DNA of 25,516 nucleotides, taken from IMG/VR virus record IMGVR_UViG_3300005590_000069, positions 1-25,516 of that record. One strand, written 5' to 3'. Numbering within the stretch: position 1 is the first letter of the stretch; the number at the start of each line of letters is the position of its first letter. Both the position numbers and the translations under genes were made by a program. Positions 1,100-24,290 of the stretch are shown here, piece by piece. The DNA comes from a virus. The notes beneath the pieces are model-generated. The model was not told the origin of the DNA. It worked only from the letters and a program-made list of their open reading frames with translations, and made no database searches.

Positions 1100-1927
1100 T
1101 CAAACCAACAAAACCTCCCGAATCGCAGGGGAAGGTATTTCTTTTGCCGGACGTTGATTTTGTTCTTTATCCGGGAACGGAGAATTGGCCATCTCGATAA
1201 TCAGTTGCTCGGCCATTCTCTGAATGTGCGCTGCCCGCGCCGCCCAGACTTCCTCCGCTGACTGCGCTTCCCGCGCTTCCACCGCTTCCCGCACTGCATG
1301 CGATGACATCACTGCCCAAAATGGCTCCGATCCCCCCGCTGACCACAATACCCCCGCTTCCACCGCTGCCCCCGCTGACCGCGCTGCCCACAATGGCCGC
1401 GCTGCATCCGCTGCCAGCGCTGCATCCGCTGCCCGCGCTGCATCGGTCCATTCTGACTCTGTTGGCATATCCCCCGCCGATGAACGACGACATAGCAGTC
1501 CAACCTCTTGAATGGCCAATCTGGCCTGTTCTTGTGATTCACAGGCAATAACACCATAATCAGGGTCGATCAGCATCCAAGCCATGAACGACCAATATCC
1601 ACGATCCAGGTCAGCGCCCACAGGCATCGCGTCAATAACTGATTCGCTCCATAGCCTGTCCTTTTGCATGGGCAGACTTTCAAAGAAATACTCTTGAAGA
1701 TTCGATATCTCTGGATGACAGTTAACCAAATCCGAGAACTGCCGGTGCCAGTTGCCACGCTTGCCGGTAACGGACATCACAGCACAGCCCAGGTGACAAC
1801 CCTTGCCTTCTTCAAAGTATTCACCTAGGCCCTGAACAAAGGTGTCGCCACGCCTGTGCGCGATAGCTGAACGCAACATCTTGTCTTTAATGGTTGGGTC
1901 GTTGTGGAACGCGGGTTTAAATTCCAT
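1100..1927 (-). CDS. phage accessory protein with a 'GKGCHLGC' domain and an Ala-rich tripeptide tail
   Basis: 275 residues. Residues 1-145 form a domain I recognise from many phages: FEEGKGCHLGCAV near 38-50, a His-containing stretch, a 'FFESLP' segment near 81-86, WSESVIDAMPVGADL near 93-107 and FMAWMLIDPDYGV near 114-126. No function is established to my knowledge. From about residue 160 the chain becomes Ala-rich; around 163-176 it reads as AAR-AAD-AAL-AAD-AA tripeptides, mirrored in the DNA by a 9-base period near 1395-1440. It then becomes irregular with W and E residues until about 235. The end (residues 246-275) is unique sequence. It belongs with the two other register-repeat proteins in this window (5441-6193 and 7797-8411). 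Confidence 0.8.
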   Translation of the reverse strand: MEFKPAFHNDPTIKDKMLRSAIAHRRGDTFVQGLGEYFEEGKGCHLGCAVMSVTGKRGNWHRQFSDLVNCHPEISNLQEYFFESLPMQKDRLWSESVIDAMPVGADLDRGYWSFMAWMLIDPDYGVIACESQEQARLAIQEVGLLCRRSSAGDMPTESEWTDAARAADAALAADAARPLWAARSAGAAVEAGVLWSAGGSEPFWAVMSSHAVREAVEAREAQSAEEVWAARAAHIQRMAEQLIIEMANSPFPDKEQNQRPAKEIPSPAIREVLLV

Positions 1928-5086: not shown

Positions 5087-5444
5087 CGATCTCCACCTCG
5101 TAAGTAACGGTCGTCCTTCCGGTCTCGGGGTCTACCTGCATGTGATAAGCCGCGAACCGGATACACTCGATCGGGTAACAGTCTTTTTCCGTGATGTCGT
5201 TTACCGGGCCATTCGGCGTGTAGTTAGTGACCTCGAACGACATCGCAAGCTGAGAATCGTCGAAGTTCATAGCGTTACGCAGTTTTGTGATGTCCACCAC
5301 TACAGCGTTGCTGTTTAGTCTTGCTTCCCAGAAAAAGCCGTCGTCATCTAGCTCGTAACCCCAATCGCAGTGATCCGCGATGTGACTATCGATGCTGTAA
5401 GCCTCGCCCTGCGTGTCGATGATTAGGTCGGGTGTGGTGGTCAC
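5079..5444 (-). CDS. 121-residue acidic protein of unknown function
   Basis: The only good start is a GTG at 5444-5442, overlapping the upstream TGA (GTGA). The product begins MTTTPDLIIDTQGEAYSIDS and contains WGYELDDDGFFWEA and DSQLAMSFEVTNYTPNGPV; it is acidic, beta-rich by composition and soluble. I do not recognise a family. It lies directly behind the tetrad-repeat protein and before the zinc-binding-like protein. Confidence 0.6.
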   Translation of the reverse strand: MTTTPDLIIDTQGEAYSIDSHIADHCDWGYELDDDGFFWEARLNSNAVVVDITKLRNAMNFDDSQLAMSFEVTNYTPNGPVNDITEKDCYPIECIRFAAYHMQVDPETGRTTVTYEVEIDE

Positions 5445-6193
5445 GTCGACACCCCTTCCAACCCAAGCAACCCAATAAGCCTGGATTCAAGCTCTTTGTT
5501 TTGACTTTCAATTTCGGCATTCCTGTCGGCATTCCTGGCGGCAGCCCAGACGGCAGCCCTGGCGGCAGCCAAGACGGCATTCCTGGCGGCAGCCCAGTCG
5601 GCAGCCCAGAAGGCAGCCCTGTCGGCAGCCAAGACGGCAGCCCAGTCGGCATTCCTGTCGGCATTCCAGACGGCAGCCCTGGCGGCAGCCCAGGCGGCAG
5701 CCCTGGCGGCAGCCCTGGCGGCAGCCCAGGCGGAATACAATTCTTCATCCGATGCTTTACCTGACAGCCATTGACGCTTGGTTTTTATCGCGTACCAAGA
5801 ACGCTTGTCCGCTTTCTTCTTATTTCGTTTTTCCCAATGCGTTAAAGCACTTTCCGCGCACCAACATGAAAACTCATGCAACAAATCACTCGCGTCATCC
5901 ATTGCAATGCAGGAGCGGTGCGTGGCAACTAGCTTGTCATTTCCAAATACCACATCGCCCAAAAGCACTACCCGACACACAACGGGACCGGGGGCATAAA
6001 TCAATGCGTCCATAGCACGGGCAGATGCGTGCATTCCAGATTGACACAATACCGGTTGATCAGCCGACTCAAGCGTCTCACCAACAACGACCAACCGGCC
6101 GTCACCGTTGCCTAGGCGCCGGTCTTCCGTCAGGAAGTGCCAGGCAAGAGCCTTGGTTTGGGTGTCGGGCATTGTATCGTTAATGGTGTTCAT
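5441..6193 (-). CDS. DUF7666-like phage protein with a [WRL]-x-Ala-x tetrad repeat
   Basis: 250 residues. Residues 12-125 carry the pattern of the phage domain known as DUF7666: ALAWHFLTEDRRLGNGDGR, a VGETL segment, LCQSGMHASARAMDALIYAP, VVCRVVLLGDVV, NDKLVATHRS and LLHEFSCWCAESAL. Its function is unknown. Residues 126-150 are a basic linker. Residues 156-227 are an 18-unit tetrad repeat: every fourth residue (156, 160 ... 224) is W, R or L, the residue two after it is always Ala, and the rest are mostly A, N, V or D. The end (228-250) is a short Glu/Leu helix. The repeat is probably a long Ala-based helix or solenoid. A terminator-like hairpin lies upstream (6219-6256). Confidence 0.8.
   Translation of the reverse strand: MNTINDTMPDTQTKALAWHFLTEDRRLGNGDGRLVVVGETLESADQPVLCQSGMHASARAMDALIYAPGPVVCRVVLLGDVVFGNDKLVATHRSCIAMDDASDLLHEFSCWCAESALTHWEKRNKKKADKRSWYAIKTKRQWLSGKASDEELYSAWAAARAAARAAAWAAARAAVWNADRNADWAAVLAADRAAFWAADWAAARNAVLAAARAAVWAAARNADRNAEIESQNKELESRLIGLLGLEGVST
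5513..5728 (-). repeat. 12-base tandem repeat encoding the tetrad tract
   Basis: About 18 units of a 12-base pattern (plus-strand form close to GGCAGCCCTGGC / GGCATTCCTGTC) encode the W/R/L-x-A-x tetrads. The units are not identical but never lose phase. Several other frames are also open across the array, a by-product of the repeat; I do not treat them as genes. Confidence 0.85.
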
Positions 6194-7213: not shown

Positions 7214-7265
7214 CATAAAATATCAAAATTATCTATTTGGACAATTGATATTTTGGCGTTCTAAA

Positions 7266-7338
7266 TCAGGGGCACAGGATTCGAACCTGTTTCCTTGGGA
7301 TCACAACCCAAAGATTTATCCACATAAGCTAGCCCCTA
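7266..7338 (-). tRNA. tRNA with GUG (His) anticodon
   Basis: A 73-nt cloverleaf on the minus strand. Acceptor stem TAGGGGC / GCCCCTG (first pair U-G), D arm GCTT/AATC with one mismatch, anticodon stem TTGGG/CCCAA around loop TTGTGAT (anticodon GTG), a 4-base variable loop, and a perfect T arm ACAGG-TTCGAAT-CCTGT. No CCA is encoded. The base before position 1 is T and position 73 is A, so the usual His identity pair G-1:C73 is absent; alphaproteobacterial tRNA-His is the known exception of this kind. It probably supplements His decoding during infection. Confidence 0.9.
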
Positions 7339-7433
7339 AATGCGTCTGGCGGGGTTGCCTGACCAAGCCACGCTACCTCATCGCATGGACACCCAGCCAA
7401 GTACCACCCAGAATCGGTGTCTATTCTCAGACG

Positions 7434-7796: not shown

Positions 7797-8411
7797 TTAG
7801 TTATTTGACTGGATCTTCCCGGTGCAGTATGTGCAGCCGGCGCATCCGGCGCATCCGGTGCAGCCCTTGCAGTTGGTGCAGTTGGCGCAGTTGGTGCAGT
7901 TGGTGCAGCCTTTTGATCCAGTGCAGCCGGAGCAGTATGTGCAGCCTTTTGATTCGGTGCAGCCGGAGCAGCCGGCGCAGTTGGTGCAGTATGTGCAGCC
8001 GGAGCAGCCGGAGCAGCAGGTGCAGACGGAGCAGTCGGTGCAATTGCAGCAGCCGTTGCAGTCGGTGCAGCCGGTGCAATTGTTGCAGTTCCAATTGCCT
8101 CTATCGTCGCATTCGCCATTTAAAGCGGCTAAAATATGTTCAGGTTTTGCTAACGAATTATTCATAATCCGTACAGCCAAACACACAAGAGGGTCTTTTT
8201 GGTCGAATTGATTGTGTTTGGGGCCATCGTCTGTTGGGCCAAATCCGGCAATTAAATGAGCCGCACCCCACACACAACAAGACGTTCCGCAGTCCCATTG
8301 TGATTGATCGTAAACCCTTTTGAATCCTCCGATCTCGCCCCCATAATAACGGTGTTCGATCGCCCATTTACATGCGTCGATCATGTTCTGTTTTGTTACT
8401 ATCTTTTCCAT
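7797..8411 (-). CDS. phage protein with a 30-unit Cys-x-x triplet repeat
   Basis: 204 residues. Residues 1-100 form an N-terminal domain with MIDACKWAIEHRYYGGEIGG, DQSQWDCGTSCCVWGAAHLI and AGFGPTDDGP. The 'WDCGTxCCxWGAA' pattern is one I associate with phage accessory proteins, function unknown. From Cys109 to Cys196 there is a residue of the repeat every third position without a single slip: 28 of 30 positions are Cys and two are Ser (154 and 166). The intervening residues are mainly T, N, G, S, A and Y, with two extra Cys out of register. No signal peptide, so the Cys would be in the reducing cytoplasm; metal binding or a polyproline-II-like rod with one Cys face is possible. Confidence 0.8.
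   Translation of the reverse strand: MEKIVTKQNMIDACKWAIEHRYYGGEIGGFKRVYDQSQWDCGTSCCVWGAAHLIAGFGPTDDGPKHNQFDQKDPLVCLAVRIMNNSLAKPEHILAALNGECDDRGNWNCNNCTGCTDCNGCCNCTDCSVCTCCSGCSGCTYCTNCAGCSGCTESKGCTYCSGCTGSKGCTNCTNCANCTNCKGCTGCAGCAGCTYCTGKIQSNN
7824..8087 (-). repeat. 9-base tandem repeat encoding the Cys-x-x tract
   Basis: About 30 units of a 9-base pattern (plus-strand forms CAGTTGGTG and CAGCCGGAG) encode the triplets. Codons vary but phase is perfectly kept. Plus-strand and other frames are also open through the array and are not called as genes. Confidence 0.85.
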
Positions 8412-9515: not shown

Positions 9516-10328
9516 TCACCACTTTCCGGCCGGGCATGTCTGCCCCTTGATGGCGGTCTTGGCTTTGAGCAGGCAGCCGCACTTGCCGCACCTGCAATAC
9601 CTGCCGACTTTCCCGACACAAGGTATCGCGTGTTCGCACCCTCGGCAGATTGCCCTGCGTCGGTTCACCACATCCTGGATGGGCCGGTCGCGGTGCATGG
9701 CGTAATCAAATATTCCTTTGGCGCCCTGCAGAATGGTCGAACCGCGCTTAGAACACCGGCACCTCTTGGGCTTGGGTTCATGGGAAGACAGGTATTCATA
9801 AATCGACTGGTCCTTCTGGTTGTGATCCATCAGCCAGGATCTCTGGGCGTCACTCAAATCCAATGGGCCCGAGCTGTTGCGGTCGCCACAACCCTGGTCG
9901 ATACTAAATCCAAAAGACCTGCCCAGGCCTGATAGGAACTCATCGTAACGATCATAAAGACCGACGGCGTCAAACAGCGACAGGTTATCGATCGCCTCCT
10001 GGACCGATCCGTGTTTCGTTAGCCGGTTGACCATCGCGTTGCACAGCTCAAACGAATCGGGACGCAAAATAGAATCCAGATCGGTCCACCCAGACTCTTT
10101 GGAAAAGTAGCCCTGCTGCTTCCGTAGCCCGCGTGCGTAGGTCAGGTAGCTGCACAACCGGTCGATCGGGTTTCGGATGATGGTCAGAACAACATAACCG
10201 TCCTTGGCGTTCCATTGCCGGGCGTTGTGTCCCCCGTGAACACCGACGCCCTGGTCACGCAATGAGCTTGATAGATAAGTTCCGCCCGTGCGTGGGTGAT
10301 GCACGAAATAGACGCCCTTGCAGCCCAT
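9516..10328 (-). CDS. PAPS-type sulfotransferase fused to a Cys-rich 'CPAGKW' domain
   Basis: 270 residues. FVHHPRTGGTYLSSSL (8-23) is the 5'-phosphosulfate loop of sulfotransferases of the HxPRTGGT type, and IIRNPIDRLCSYLTYARG (50-67) is the 3'-phosphate-binding motif, so the N-terminal 180 residues should transfer sulfate from PAPS to a sugar or similar acceptor. After a basic linker, residues 225-270 (RRRAICRGCEHAIP ... CRCGKCGCLLKAKTAIKGQT CPAGKW) form a Cys-rich putative zinc ribbon, a short domain I recognise from proteins of marine and other phages. Sits at the end of the tail operon; ATG overlaps the upstream TGA. A virion- or host-glycan target is inference. Confidence 0.8.
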   Translation of the reverse strand: MGCKGVYFVHHPRTGGTYLSSSLRDQGVGVHGGHNARQWNAKDGYVVLTIIRNPIDRLCSYLTYARGLRKQQGYFSKESGWTDLDSILRPDSFELCNAMVNRLTKHGSVQEAIDNLSLFDAVGLYDRYDEFLSGLGRSFGFSIDQGCGDRNSSGPLDLSDAQRSWLMDHNQKDQSIYEYLSSHEPKPKRCRCSKRGSTILQGAKGIFDYAMHRDRPIQDVVNRRRAICRGCEHAIPCVGKVGRYCRCGKCGCLLKAKTAIKGQTCPAGKW

Positions 10329-18186: not shown

Positions 18187-19557
18187 CTACGCCCGTGCGG
18201 CCAGATTCACGAACGGCGACAGGTTGTTCGAGCCGTTGTTTGGCGTGATGGACGAACTGAGCCACGGCTGCCCGTCGACACGGAATACGGCCTTGAAAGC
18301 CGTCATGTCGTAATCGAAGAACAGGTGGATGCTGGTCTGGTTGATGATGTCCTTTTTGATCGTGGCGTAAGACGCCATGTCCGCGAAATAGATATCACCT
18401 GCGTCGCCTACCGTCTTGGCGGTCTGCGACAGGATCACCGGCCGTCCGAACAGCATTCCGCCCGGCGCGTTCGTTAATCCGGTCGACGGCGGTGTCCATA
18501 TCGGTTGGTTACCCAGCGTCATCGTGATCAACTGAGGAAACACGTCGTTGTTGGCGATCCAGACGGCCGTGCCGATACCCGATGCGGGCACGCGTGCGTA
18601 CATCTTGGCTACGTTGGCCGCGACGACCGTATCGGCCGTCTGGCTCGTTTCCTTAGCCACCGTCACCAGCGCGCTGGAATTGGCAATACCCAACGGCTGG
18701 CCCGCGCCTGTGCCGTTGATAATCGCATCGTTAGTCTTCCACCGGATCGACCGAGCCGTCGCATTGGTGATAAACGCCTCAAGGGTAGAGGTGTCGCTCA
18801 GCAACTCGTCGGTCATCGGAACCAACGCGATCAGCTTGTTCAGACGTAGCGTGCGCTGCTTGAGTACGGGCTTGGTCTGCGTAGCCTGGTCGCCCTCGCC
18901 TTCCCAGAAGCAACGAACACCGTTGGAGCCCCAGGGGGTGGTCTCGTCCGCCGGGAACGTCATGCTGTTGCCTTGAACGGGCATCTCGTCCGTCAGAGGT
19001 AACAGCGCGTCGCCCTCAAGAGAATGCTCACGGATCTGGTCGCTAAACTCCGGCGGGACCAGGAACCCGCCGTCGGCACCCACGCCCTCGGATGCGTAGG
19101 TCGTGGGGGCTTTGGTCATCAGGCGATGGTCAAGAACCGACCCCGACTTGTTGCCCGCCTGGTACACGGCCCACGCGAACTCGCCGAAGCTCTTAAAGCC
19201 TTGCGTCCTCTTTTCGTCGTTACGGTAATCACCGCCTGTGACGACAGGGATCTTCTTACCGGTCTTGACCGACTTGATGGCCGACTGGATCTCGCGGCGG
19301 ATCATCGATTGTAGGCTGGCCTGCGTCACATCGGCGGGCTGATCCTGGGGCGTTTCCTGGGCCTCGGGATCGGCAGGCGCTCCGACCAGGATGATCTGCT
19401 CGATCTCTACCGGCGATCCGTCCTCATTCACGACTGGGACTTCTTCTTCCTCGCCCTGCTTCAGAAAAGCGCCGACCTTGTTACGAAGCTCGTCTAAGTC
19501 TTTGGACTCGGCCTGCAGCTTGGGCAGGACGAACTCCATGAATTGCTTGATTTTCAT
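18187..19557 (-). CDS. HK97-type major capsid protein
   Basis: 456 residues. A helical N-terminal delta domain (MKIKQFMEFVLPKLQAESKD to about residue 100, with acidic KQGEEEEVPVV) acts as built-in scaffold and should be cut away by the adjacent protease. The capsid fold follows: GGFLVPPEFSDQIREHSLEG, MPVQGNSMTFPADETTPWGS, LNKLIALVPMTDELLSDTST, NDAIINGTGAGQPLGIANSS, and P/A-domain end with MASYATIKKDIINQ and a final AVFRVDGQPWLS. Starts after a 143-base gap that carries its own promoter. Confidence 0.95.
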   Translation of the reverse strand: MKIKQFMEFVLPKLQAESKDLDELRNKVGAFLKQGEEEEVPVVNEDGSPVEIEQIILVGAPADPEAQETPQDQPADVTQASLQSMIRREIQSAIKSVKTGKKIPVVTGGDYRNDEKRTQGFKSFGEFAWAVYQAGNKSGSVLDHRLMTKAPTTYASEGVGADGGFLVPPEFSDQIREHSLEGDALLPLTDEMPVQGNSMTFPADETTPWGSNGVRCFWEGEGDQATQTKPVLKQRTLRLNKLIALVPMTDELLSDTSTLEAFITNATARSIRWKTNDAIINGTGAGQPLGIANSSALVTVAKETSQTADTVVAANVAKMYARVPASGIGTAVWIANNDVFPQLITMTLGNQPIWTPPSTGLTNAPGGMLFGRPVILSQTAKTVGDAGDIYFADMASYATIKKDIINQTSIHLFFDYDMTAFKAVFRVDGQPWLSSSITPNNGSNNLSPFVNLAARA

Positions 19558-19682: not shown

Positions 19683-19712
19683 ATTTTAGACCACACGGTC
19701 TTATGATGTCAA
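19683..19712 (-). promoter_or_regulatory. promoter for the major capsid gene
   Basis: Leftward TTGACA (19712-19707), 18-base spacer, TAAAAT (19688-19683). Its -35 overlaps the end of the protease gene. The spacer holds the inverted repeat AGACC-GTGT-GGTCT, a possible operator. Confidence 0.6.
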
Positions 19713-20492
19713 GTAAATTTTGCCCGATTGACGCGCCATCTCGAAGCGGACCAATTCAGACTCGCTTGCGCTACGGACGGACACGGCGGGATTGCGGAAA
19801 CCCTTCGGATCACAAAATGCCACATAGGCCTTGGACCTTAAGAGTTCAGGGTCGTTGACCATTTGAGTCTGGGGCAATACGCCCGCAGGAATCCCGAACT
19901 CCTTCACAGCAACGCCACGCGGGATCAAGCCCTTGCCCACGGCCGTGACAAAAGCGTCCGCATTGGACTGGACCGGCGCGACAGACCATTCCAAGAGCTT
20001 CCACTTAGATATCACGTTACGCACCGATTCGCCAAACATCTCCTTATCGCGTTTGCTGGGCTGGCGTTGCTCGATGGGGATAAACCCCACGCTGATGCCC
20101 ACGCGTTTGCCCAGCTCCTTGGATTGGGTCACAAACGCACGCACAAAATCGGGGAAAAACTCGCCCGAAAAATCCTTGGGCCGCTTCAGAAAATTCGCCT
20201 TGGCCAGCCAGCCCTTGTCGGATCTTTTTAACGCGCCGGGGATCGCAATGGGCCTGTCGTAATTGTGGTTCCAGAACACAGAACCCGACACGTTGAATTC
20301 GCTGGGGTCCATGCCCAGAGGCAGCAAAACCTCTTTGTCGCGATCAACCGAATCCGTCGTGATCTTGGCCGTGAACGCGAACGGGTCGATCTCAGAATCA
20401 ACCTCGGCTGCGACCTGCTTGAGCTTGACCTCGGCATCTTCGTCGAGGCGGTGCCGTTTCTTGATGCCCGCAATAACAAGATTAGTTTCCAT
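19701..20492 (-). CDS. HK97-type prohead protease
   Basis: 263 residues. VFWNHNYDRPIAIPGALKR (72-90) carries the catalytic His of the family (His 76), and GKRVGISVGFIPI (128-140) the catalytic Ser (Ser 134), as in HK97 gp4-type assemblins. EWSVAPVQSNADAFV (173-187) is another standard segment. It cleaves capsid delta domains and itself during prohead maturation. The start overlaps the portal stop by 11 bases. Confidence 0.9.
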   Translation of the reverse strand: METNLVIAGIKKRHRLDEDAEVKLKQVAAEVDSEIDPFAFTAKITTDSVDRDKEVLLPLGMDPSEFNVSGSVFWNHNYDRPIAIPGALKRSDKGWLAKANFLKRPKDFSGEFFPDFVRAFVTQSKELGKRVGISVGFIPIEQRQPSKRDKEMFGESVRNVISKWKLLEWSVAPVQSNADAFVTAVGKGLIPRGVAVKEFGIPAGVLPQTQMVNDPELLRSKAYVAFCDPKGFRNPAVSVRSASESELVRFEMARQSGKIYLTS

Positions 20493-23049
20493 CGTTCACG
20501 TCCCTTAATACAGCCACCAGGTCGCACCGGTCGTTCGGGTGCAGGGGTGGTCCCTGGATGTCCCTGAAATTCACCTTGAGTGTACCGCCCTCCGTGCCCT
20601 GAACCACATCGCCCAGCTTGAAAAAACTATCGTCTAGCCCGACCGTCTTGTTATTGAACTGTGCCGCTAGAGACTTGCAGAACTCGCAGGCGTTCGGTGC
20701 CAGCAGCCACTGCACGCCCTCGACCACGCCCGACTGGCGCCACGACTCTTTCTTGCCCTGGACAAACGCGTCGGCCGATTCGGTGCGGGCGATTGCGTCG
20801 GCACGGGCACGGCTAAACGCGCCGGTCTCCTCGATCGATCGGCTCAACTCTGTAGGGGTAGCGCCCTGGCCGACCCCATCGTTCAACACCTGCTCGACAC
20901 GGGCGCGGGTCACGCCGCTTAATTCACCGGCCAACAGTGTGGTGCGGCTACGGATAAAGTCTGTCACCTGCTGTGATGTGATATCAAACCCGGTAACGCC
21001 GATATCCGACAGCCCACGCTCAAAAGACGCCCTGAGCATTTCAGACAGCGGCTCAAATATGGCGTCCTCCAGGTCACCGCTCATGGCTTCGATACGGTCC
21101 AGCACGCGCTGAATCTCACGGCTTGTGATCTTGAGGCGCACATCGCCCTTGAGCGTCTTGCCAACGATGCCCATAACGTCTTCGGACACCTGATCGAACA
21201 CGCCCTGCACCGCGTCACGCAGACGCGTCTCGGGCGTCACCGGCTGGTCGTCTCGGATGTCCTGGTCTGCGGCGACCTTGTAGATTAGTTCTGATTGGCT
21301 AAATGACTTTCCTGACGGGCAGTTGCAGCCGTCATTGGCTAGGTCTGTATGCTTGGCGGCGGGTTGGGTGGAGTCGGCCTCTGATGCGTCGGCGCTGGCG
21401 TCCTGTTCGTTGGCCAAGGAGGCCGATTCCTCTCCGACCCCAGTATCGGCCTCCACTGCTTTAGGGACCACTCCACTAACATCGACATCAGATCTTTCAC
21501 TATCCAACACATCCACGCCATCAACACCACCGGCAACGCTATCAGCTTCTTCATCACGACTAAGCCCCTTTAATACCTTCTCCACAATCTTCTCGATATC
21601 ACTGTCCTGCAAGCCTACCGACCGGTTCTCAATCTGGATACGTGCCGACTCCTGCTCCGTCGCGGGACGCGCCGACGGCTGCGCGGACAACCCAAAGCCA
21701 GCCAGCGGGTTGGGCTGAACACCGATGGGCTGGCCGTTGACCAGCAACTTGTCCGCCATCGGGTCGTCGTGCGGCTCGTCGCCGATCCGCTCCCGCACCT
21801 CGTTCAGCGTGCGGATACCACCGCTCGACAGGCGCGTGTTTTCCTCTAGCTCAAACTGCTTGTCCGCAGGCACGGGGTTATCAAACGCCAGCACCGCGTC
21901 GTCCTGGATATCGAACATCGGCAACAGCTTCTCGTTGAGCTTCTGCTCGATCAGCTTGATGCTCGGCAGGATCGTCGATTCACGCCACTGAGCGTACCCG
22001 GTCTTGCTCGACGCCAGGTTCGGGTCGTTGGCCTTGAGCATCGACACCGGCACGCCAAACACCGCCGAGATTTCTTCAACCACCTCGTCGCGACCCGTAA
22101 GGTCTTTGGGCGGGAAGTTGAGCGGCTTAAGCTCAACGTCACCGGAAAAGCTCAAGAACCTGCCGGACTTGCGAGAACCCATCAGCTTCTGTTCGACCTT
22201 CGTCTCAAGGCGGTCAAGCTGATCTCCCTGCGTACCCGCCTTAGCCACCATCAGGTAATCCGGCCGGGCGTGGTTGTCGGCCATCGCAAGGTCCATCTCG
22301 TGGTTGGACTCATTGAGCTTCACTACACCCCACGCCGCCTCGGGCTTGCCCATTCCGTAATACAACCCGTCACGGCCGGGGTTAGTGGTCCTGAAGTGCA
22401 CCACCTCATCAACCGCGTAATCAAGCTGCGACGAACTATCGCGGCCGTACACGTAGCCACGGATGAACTGTTCACGGTCGGGCACGACAAACATCCACTG
22501 GCTGGGCATGGGCCACAGCTCGCCGGGCACGCCCAGGTTATTGACCACGGGGTGCAGGTACGCGTTGCCGATCAGCTCAAGGTAAAGCGCAACCAATTGG
22601 ATCAGGTCGAACTGATTGAACCACGGGTTCACGTTCTTGAGCAGTTCCAGGACCGGGTGGGTATCTACGACCTCCTCGAAATCTTCGCCGAACTCGATCA
22701 CCTTCCGCATGGTCTGCTTGTGGGGCGTGATCATGCCCATAGGGCCAGACGCATCGCCATACAGATACCGCTTGGATTGCCTCGTAGCGGGCCGTGTGTT
22801 CCACAGCTTGTTGACGCCTGATCGATTCCGAACAAACAGACGCAACGGCACGGACGATACCGCGGTGGCGTTGATGCTGGCGGCGGCATAAACCCAGGAC
22901 CGGTACGACGCGATCGCCGCCTCAGGATTGAACGGACGCTGCTTGGCACCGAACCGGCCCGAGCCCTCGATGACGCGAACCGATGAGTTGAGCCACTGGT
23001 CGCGGCTGGACTGTGCCTTGTGATAGATATGGGGCGCGTAGGGTTTCAT
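20482..23049 (-). CDS. portal protein fused to a MuF-like minor head domain
   Basis: 855 residues from ATG 23049 (ATGA with the terminase stop; an in-frame GTG lies at 23055). Residues 1-460 are a phage portal of the HK97/SPP1 type: PHKQTMRKVIEFGEDFEEVV, NAYLHPVVNNLGVPGELWPM, EVVHFRTTNPGRDGLYYGMG, and ISAVFGVPVSMLKANDPNLA. Residues 480-620 are a low-complexity acidic linker with Cys-containing DGCNCPSG. Residues 640-855 are a MuF/SPP1-gp7-like region: RARVEQVLNDGVGQGATPTE, RARADAIARTESADAFVQGK, CEFCKSL and GPPLHPNDRCDLVAV. Normally these are two genes. Confidence 0.9.
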   Translation of the reverse strand: MKPYAPHIYHKAQSSRDQWLNSSVRVIEGSGRFGAKQRPFNPEAAIASYRSWVYAAASINATAVSSVPLRLFVRNRSGVNKLWNTRPATRQSKRYLYGDASGPMGMITPHKQTMRKVIEFGEDFEEVVDTHPVLELLKNVNPWFNQFDLIQLVALYLELIGNAYLHPVVNNLGVPGELWPMPSQWMFVVPDREQFIRGYVYGRDSSSQLDYAVDEVVHFRTTNPGRDGLYYGMGKPEAAWGVVKLNESNHEMDLAMADNHARPDYLMVAKAGTQGDQLDRLETKVEQKLMGSRKSGRFLSFSGDVELKPLNFPPKDLTGRDEVVEEISAVFGVPVSMLKANDPNLASSKTGYAQWRESTILPSIKLIEQKLNEKLLPMFDIQDDAVLAFDNPVPADKQFELEENTRLSSGGIRTLNEVRERIGDEPHDDPMADKLLVNGQPIGVQPNPLAGFGLSAQPSARPATEQESARIQIENRSVGLQDSDIEKIVEKVLKGLSRDEEADSVAGGVDGVDVLDSERSDVDVSGVVPKAVEADTGVGEESASLANEQDASADASEADSTQPAAKHTDLANDGCNCPSGKSFSQSELIYKVAADQDIRDDQPVTPETRLRDAVQGVFDQVSEDVMGIVGKTLKGDVRLKITSREIQRVLDRIEAMSGDLEDAIFEPLSEMLRASFERGLSDIGVTGFDITSQQVTDFIRSRTTLLAGELSGVTRARVEQVLNDGVGQGATPTELSRSIEETGAFSRARADAIARTESADAFVQGKKESWRQSGVVEGVQWLLAPNACEFCKSLAAQFNNKTVGLDDSFFKLGDVVQGTEGGTLKVNFRDIQGPPLHPNDRCDLVAVLRDVNDGN

Positions 23050-24290
23050 TGCCACATGCTTTCATTGTTAAACCTGCCGGTTTCGCCTGAGTCGCCGATC
23101 ACGCGGACACGCACAGTATTCTTGGTCTGTTCTTTCCAGCACTTCACGGCCAATGCCAGGGCACAAACGCCGTCGTCATGCAATCCAGAGGGCGCTTGGT
23201 ATCGAACATGACCGCCGGGGCGGTACTCGTACTCGAACGACTCGACCTCGTTAGTGAGCCAGCCCTCGGGGAAGCGAACCTCGTTGCGCTGGATCGAAGA
23301 TGCCAGGCCTTCCATGAGCTGCTGCTTGCTGGTGCTCGTAAACTTGAACCCGCTGATATTGGCCCGGATGCGCTGAAAATCTTCCACGATAGGGTCGCCG
23401 ACACCCGTCGAGTCCACCAGCGTCTTCCAGCCATTGACTTGTGATAGCACGCGCTGGCGCGTCTGGCCCCAATCGATCTGGAACCGGTCCAACGAACACA
23501 CACGTCCCTCCGCGTCCAATCCGCATACAACGGTCCAGTCCTGGCTCTTGGCAAGGTCCACGCCAAACGCCACCGGTGGTGATTCAGAAATCCTATCGAT
23601 CACGCATTCACGTATGGCCTTGATGCCGAACGGGTTGCCGCCGTCATCGGCCGGGATGCCTAAATATTCCTGCTCAAAAATGTGCAAGAGCCCCGACTTC
23701 TCGTATTCGGCCCTCGCTTCATCGACCTCGCCCATGTTGATGTAAGGGTTGTCTGCCGTGCCCATACACCAAGAGGCCCAGCCCTTGTCGCCCTGCTCAC
23801 CCTTGGCAAACAGTGTCTGGAAATACTTACGGCCACGCGGCGTCCCCAAAAACCATCCGTCACCGCCAAGATCAGACAACGTGGGACGTAGTGATTCGGT
23901 CCAGACCCGCTGTAGGTCACGCACAAGTGAGGCCTCGTCAACAATGATGCGTTTGTATTTCCTGCCGCGTCCCGAGTCGGGGTCATCCAGTGACCAGAAG
24001 TCGATGGACCCGCCCGTAATCAGATCGACGCGCTGCTCTGTTTTATTGACGGACGATATCAACGTCTTGATCCGTCTTGTGATTTCCCGCCAAGGCTCCA
24101 TAAGGTACTTGTAGGTCGGTGCGAACCACCCGACCGGATCTCCATGGAACGCGGGGTCTTGGGCAAGGTCTTGACCAAACCTCGTCTTGCCCCATCTCCT
24201 GCCGCAACGCACAACGTTGAATCGCTTCGCGTTATCGAGGATGTGCTGCTGCCCAGCGTGAAGCTTGGGCACATCAATCGTGAAGTTCAT
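23046..24290 (-). CDS. terminase large subunit
   Basis: 414 residues. Walker A CGRRWGKT (29-36), Walker B RIIVDEAS (114-121), coupling motif GTPRGR (150-155) for the ATPase that pumps DNA into the prohead. The nuclease part has FGVDLAKSQDWTVV (243-256), DSTGVGDP (294-301) and the acidic LHDDGVCALAL (371-381), the usual RNase H-like metal sites. All motifs are intact. Overlaps the small subunit gene by 17 bases. Confidence 0.97.
   Translation of the reverse strand: MNFTIDVPKLHAGQQHILDNAKRFNVVRCGRRWGKTRFGQDLAQDPAFHGDPVGWFAPTYKYLMEPWREITRRIKTLISSVNKTEQRVDLITGGSIDFWSLDDPDSGRGRKYKRIIVDEASLVRDLQRVWTESLRPTLSDLGGDGWFLGTPRGRKYFQTLFAKGEQGDKGWASWCMGTADNPYINMGEVDEARAEYEKSGLLHIFEQEYLGIPADDGGNPFGIKAIRECVIDRISESPPVAFGVDLAKSQDWTVVCGLDAEGRVCSLDRFQIDWGQTRQRVLSQVNGWKTLVDSTGVGDPIVEDFQRIRANISGFKFTSTSKQQLMEGLASSIQRNEVRFPEGWLTNEVESFEYEYRPGGHVRYQAPSGLHDDGVCALALAVKCWKEQTKNTVRVRVIGDSGETGRFNNESMWQ

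Follow-up and report, generated by a model that had tools for sequence, protein, structure and literature searches.

A phage accessory protein with a conserved helical head and a cysteine-triplet tail that probably forms a cysteine-cored rod

The cysteine-triplet gene and its surroundings

The DNA analysed here, a linear viral record of 25.5 kb, is in its whole length referred to as the window. It carries the head genes of a tailed phage, all on the minus strand: the terminase large subunit (23046-24290), the portal (20482-23055), a protease (19701-20492) and the major head protein (18187-19557). ORF 7797-8411, on the same strand, is surrounded by small accessory genes and lies, in its own reading direction, directly upstream of a tRNA-His gene (7265-7339). 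No match was returned by PADLOC. Other products of this phage contain repeats or Cys-rich parts as well. The protein encoded at 5441-6193 (minus) resembles DUF7666 (E 2.8e-5, below the Pfam cut-off) and ends in period-4 repeats, e.g. WAAARAAARAAAW, being a second protein of the same phage that consists of a head plus short repeats; a collagen-like ORF (PPGLPPGLP; 5386-5748, minus) overlaps its repeat part in another frame and is probably a by-product of a 12-nt array. A third repeat-tailed protein, encoded at 1100-1927 (minus), matches phrog_3416 and includes an Ala-rich stretch with a degenerate three-residue period (AARAADAALAADAAR). The product of 9516-10328 (minus) is weakly similar to sulfotransferases (phrog_3347, E 1.7e-4) and has a Cys-rich domain at its C-terminus (phrog_13558, E 4.5e-9).

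The protein encoded by ORF 7797-8411 starts with a head domain (residues 1-99; 8115..8411, minus) that has the motif R-x-Y-x-Q-x-x-W-D-C-G-T-x-C at residues 32-45. A linker (residues 100-108, ECDDRGNWN; 8088..8114, minus) separates the conserved head from the first register Cys of a Cys-x-x (Cxx) tract (residues 109-196; 7824..8087, minus), and the protein ends with residues 197-204 (TGKIQSNN) and the stop codon (7797..7823, minus); none of the C-terminal caps that other Cxx proteins have follows the tract. Residues 109, 112 and so on up to 196 make 30 sites three apart, of which 28 are Cys and two are Ser (Ser154, TCA, 7950..7952; Ser166, TCA, 7914..7916; both minus). The thirty registered Cys of a preliminary description of this sequence were thus slightly generous, while its count of 30 Cys in 88 residues, with two out of register (residues 122 and 132) and two Ser, is borne out by the translation. 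In 20,000 shuffles of residues 101-204, the number of Cys sharing a phase never exceeded 21, against the 28 observed, and chance as the source of the register is excluded. As had also been pointed out, no export signal is visible.

The DNA of the tract forms a tandem array of 9-nt units (7819-8078, 28.9 copies, 68% matches), and every copy spacing is a multiple of 9. All 28 registered Cys are encoded by TGC; the remainder of the same protein has 4 TGT and 2 TGC, and 18 other window genes have 31 TGC and 12 TGT. Both Ser units read TCA AAA GGC and lie 12 residues apart, and they may therefore go back to a single substitution that a 36-nt duplication copied, and not to two independent events. 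The array leaves several frames open, and the listed ORFs cover the tract in other frames too. The Cys frame is nevertheless the correct one, since residues 1-99, for which other phage proteins have homologous heads, continue into the tract without interruption. Searches against Pfam gave no match in the window protein, pentapeptide repeats (A(D/N)LxX) included, and no family for its tract or for a relative from Vibrio phage 1.238 even at E 10. The tail matches phrog_15341 (E 2.1e-8).

Tails carried by the head and by a C-terminal cap

Relatives of the head were collected from viral contigs by a motif scan and a profile scan. Six clear relatives were found in phage contigs, with 30-43% identity over ~95 residues (tblastn E 7e-20 to 2e-8), giving a head family of seven members with 17 invariant columns, among which W-D-C-G-T-x-C is fully conserved. 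The AlphaFold model of the window head is mostly alpha-helical (pLDDT about 66-93 per ten-residue block). In all six relatives, the final helix of the head is immediately followed by repeats. Four of them (L137, L138, L139, L142) have pentapeptide tails, with five-residue A(D/N)LxX repeats in contrast to the three-residue Cxx of the window protein; PF00805 was detected at E 2.7e-68 and 1.9e-40 in the two that were scanned. The other two (L140, L141), with a head that is homologous as well, have six-residue [LIV]GxxVx hexapeptide repeats of the left-handed beta-helix type (PF00132, E 5.9e-26 and 1.7e-32). Homologues of the N-terminal domain, which the preliminary description had proposed to search for in order to see whether their tails keep a three-residue register, therefore exist; their tails, however, are pentapeptide or hexapeptide, none of the six being Cxx, and within the head family the pairing with Cxx is found in the window protein only. 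Judged from the shared head, the window tract is located where the relatives have one or the other of two known beta-solenoid types.

A more distant look-alike of the head (L003) is followed by ankyrin-like repeats. No match was obtained in cultured phages, searched with the whole protein and with the head, or in bacterial genomes and PDB sequences, both searched with the head. Structural comparison of the head model gave only matches with Z of 2.4 or less. Homology of the window head to the THCRAGW C-cap described below was considered and not accepted (profile probability 2.4%, E 0.02), as the resemblance is limited to a short motif.

Cxx tails are widespread in other phages. We scanned viral contigs for 15 successive TGY triplets; as matches to the tract pattern include many wrong-frame repeats, these were set aside and only capped ORFs were counted. 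This gave at least 60 distinct capped tracts, the window's included, of 12 to 59 units and with recurrent caps. The capped Cys-triplet phage proteins have in common with the window protein a strict Cxx tract of ten or more units, and they differ from it in their ends: their N-caps (WxxDxNGN..., NGVxQ...) are unlike the WDCGT head, and many have a C-cap (WHTCxTTHCRAGW) that the window protein lacks. Since the TGY scan itself demands register, an unbiased evaluation of the register was based on the set found with this C-cap (A3), searched alone and without reference to the tract. The cap is encoded in 381 viral stretches. Among the best 80 of these, a Cxx tract of at least 6 units lies upstream in 75, while in the remaining five either the tract is shorter or the sequence upstream is insufficient. 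The 70 distinct tracts that precede the cap in these best 80 of 381 stretches hold 1825 Cys at 1828 register sites. In bacterial genomes (Pseudomonadota, Bacteroidota and other phyla), the A3 cap is associated with a Cxx tail at 16 of 35 loci and with a pentapeptide tail at 15 of 35. A tree of the cap places the Cxx tails almost wholly in one clade, so exchange on the C-cap may have happened once; the window head is a second, separate case of tail exchange.

Several further observations concern these relatives. The THCRAGW cap is also preceded by an Ala-Ala-x tail in L255 and by one resembling leucine-rich repeats in L240, and one phage contig has several Cys-triplet paralogues that differ in tract length (L039, L021, L074, L082). 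Cys-triplet tracts are present in cultured phages too. The Vibrio phage 1.238 protein NVP1238A_68, which has an N-cap and a Cxx tail, is annotated as 'insect antifreeze protein' via InterPro IPR016133. For Flavobacterium phage FL-1 (L143, KY421186.2 24468-29750), the Cxx tract and the C-cap are in different frames as deposited, and the annotated gene (27047-27271) contains only the cap end. PHROG 15341 and 31265, both of unknown function, cover parts of the Cys-triplet proteins.

Maintenance of the cysteine register

The preliminary description argued from the window gene that structural selection, and not simple slippage, keeps the register. For a single gene this argument is weak, because duplications within a 9-nt array leave the frame intact by themselves and both Ser may derive from one event. 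A repeat expanded by 9-nt slippage, with the register as a by-product and the head as the sole functional part, would explain the 68%-match array of the window, its uniform TGC codons and its identical Ser units, and also the variation of tract length between relatives, from about 4 to 59 units. The relatives nevertheless argue against such an explanation. In tracts with mixed TGT and TGC codons (16/17 in L119, 8/7 in L061, 11/6 in L018), TG is kept at 97-100%, whereas the other positions are scrambled, at about 30-70%. Likewise, the register sites of tracts found through the C-cap are almost completely occupied by Cys, and slips are rare: among 128 capped proteins we found three slips of one or two residues (L021, L099, L227) compared with twelve in-register replacements. 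The frequent small indels that the preliminary description had named as evidence against a structural register were not observed. We consider a purely DNA-level origin of the register very unlikely. Comparison of the relatives supports a register kept by selection on the protein, and in the Cys-triplet family both processes, lengthening by 9-nt units and selection for register, are at work.

Where Cys is replaced in register, the substitute is mainly Ser, Phe, Leu, Thr, Asn, Met, Ala, Gly or Ile, and never His, Asp, Glu or Lys. As these substitutes are mainly small or hydrophobic, a buried site fits better than a metal ligand. At the second variable position of the triplet (x2), Asp, Arg, Tyr, Asn and Gly are frequent in Cxx tracts, and this combination of mainly small or hydrophobic replacements with a polar x2 is as expected for Cys that point inward.

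Fold and possible role of the tail

The structure prediction suggested in the preliminary description was performed with AlphaFold and gave a confident head; the window tract was modelled at pLDDT 36-59, with isolated DSSP bridges every third residue, and the tract of a relative at about 26 with no bridges. At such low confidence no fold is established for the tract. A profile of 11 Cxx tracts compared with the PDB had its best match in the beetle antifreeze protein 1ezg (E 1.3e-5, with a composition bias that exceeds the score), and the best structural alignment of the low-confidence window tract model is likewise with 1ezg (Z 4.2, 78 residues, rmsd 3.8). Foldseek of the window model found no match under E 1 (1ezg appeared at E 4), a missing match being no proof of a new fold. 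In the 1ezg solenoid the inward residues recur every third position, and each of its 12-residue coils has four inward residues, Cys, Ser, Cys and Ala, at three-residue steps. By analogy, a Cxx repeat would fill this inward pattern entirely with Cys. The Tenebrio molitor antifreeze protein (1ezg/1l1i) is Cys-rich and has the every-third-residue inward positions that the Cxx tract might have, but its repeat is 12 residues long with Cys at only two of the four inward positions; it is moreover secreted and has a Thr ice-binding array, neither of which is seen in the window protein. The residue before each register Cys of the window (x2) is Gly, Asn, Tyr, Asp, Val, Cys or Glu and never Thr, so that the Thr-x-Thr (TCT) array is absent from the tract and ice binding is unlikely.

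A 12-residue coil was also considered for the Cxx tract itself. Its signal dropped from z 4.0 against unit shuffles to z 2.4 in a tract bootstrap over 16 lags, and the lag vanished once duplicated stretches were removed; thus, no coil length is claimed. Tract lengths showed no preference for multiples of 3 to 6 units.

The chemistry of so many Cys allows for different readings. Overlapping CxxC motifs at this very high density could make the 30 Cys a metallothionein-like tail that binds zinc, copper or soft metals, or a redox sink, and the lack of a visible export signal would leave the thiols reduced; the weak PDB profile matches (E 0.037 and above) include zinc-binding CXXC domains. Yet Pfam, NCBIfam and PHROG gave no metallothionein match, and metallothioneins are less strictly periodic than the Cxx tract. 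The replacements in register, never His, Asp or Glu, do not resemble metal ligands, and Cys-free tails are present on the same head and on an unrelated cap. We regard a metal- or thiol-buffering tail as unlikely. The missing export signal weighs in the opposite direction on a solenoid laddered by disulfides, in which Cys would pair across the core in the virion, after lysis or in an oxidising host cytosol and produce a very stable rod. The best PDB profile match, 1ezg, is such a disulfide-bonded solenoid, and the antifreeze annotation of the Vibrio phage 1.238 relative points the same way; odd numbers of Cys, however, are common among the tracts, and the ice-binding array does not occur in the window. 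This arrangement is, in our estimation, quite improbable.

We favour a tail that is probably a cysteine-cored rod and not a copying accident. The specific form that we propose, a helical head joined to a rigid beta-solenoid with a Cys core that is equivalent to the repeat tails of other phages, has in our judgement about an even chance of being correct. In the accessory protein, a small and mainly helical head would be joined to a stiff rod, the narrow core of which would be a ladder of inward Cys at every third residue; x1 (Thr/Ser/Ala) and x2 (Gly/Asn/Tyr/Asp) would occupy the turns and the surface. The preliminary description had instead suggested that all thiols lie along one edge of a polyproline-II structure or a tight three-residue solenoid; the tails of the head relatives speak for a beta-solenoid with Cys inside. 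In the reducing cytosol, the Cys would serve mainly as small hydrophobic core residues and not as disulfides or metal ligands, and we consider the solenoid fold, the inward orientation and this role of reduced Cys to be the most likely arrangement. Duplication of 9-nt units would lengthen or shorten the tract, while selection on the protein would remove frame slips and replacements of core Cys. The Cxx rod would then do the same job as pentapeptide and hexapeptide solenoids, that is, provide a stiff and easily lengthened scaffold with a variable surface. Some pentapeptide proteins bind gyrase, and by analogy the rod surface may bind a host protein during infection. The interchange of tails suggests that it is the length and surface of the rod that count, and not the chemistry of the thiols in itself. 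The C-cap can, however, also carry an Ala-rich tail, and the weaker head relative has an ankyrin-like one; these two are probably no beta-solenoids. A broader formulation, to which we give slightly less than an even chance, is that Cxx is a distinct and widespread phage solenoid with a continuous Cys core, which replaces pentapeptide or hexapeptide repeats on at least two unrelated caps and inside which thiols might work in reduced form, as disulfides or with metal.

Cys-triplet proteins are encoded in hundreds of phage contigs, with up to 59 Cys codons in one small protein. In the literature searched, with most subscription journals outside its reach, we found no relevant description of Cxx repeats in phages, of their fold or of their function, and at least one such gene has been deposited under the name 'insect antifreeze protein', which is probably misleading. 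Should the tract prove to be a Cys-core solenoid, a new minimal repeat would become available for protein design. A head with a Cys-triplet tail is a variant of a common, undescribed phage architecture. That tails are interchanged on one head is a sign that, for phages, rods of several repeat chemistries are equivalent, and their structure and function thereby become testable by direct comparison.
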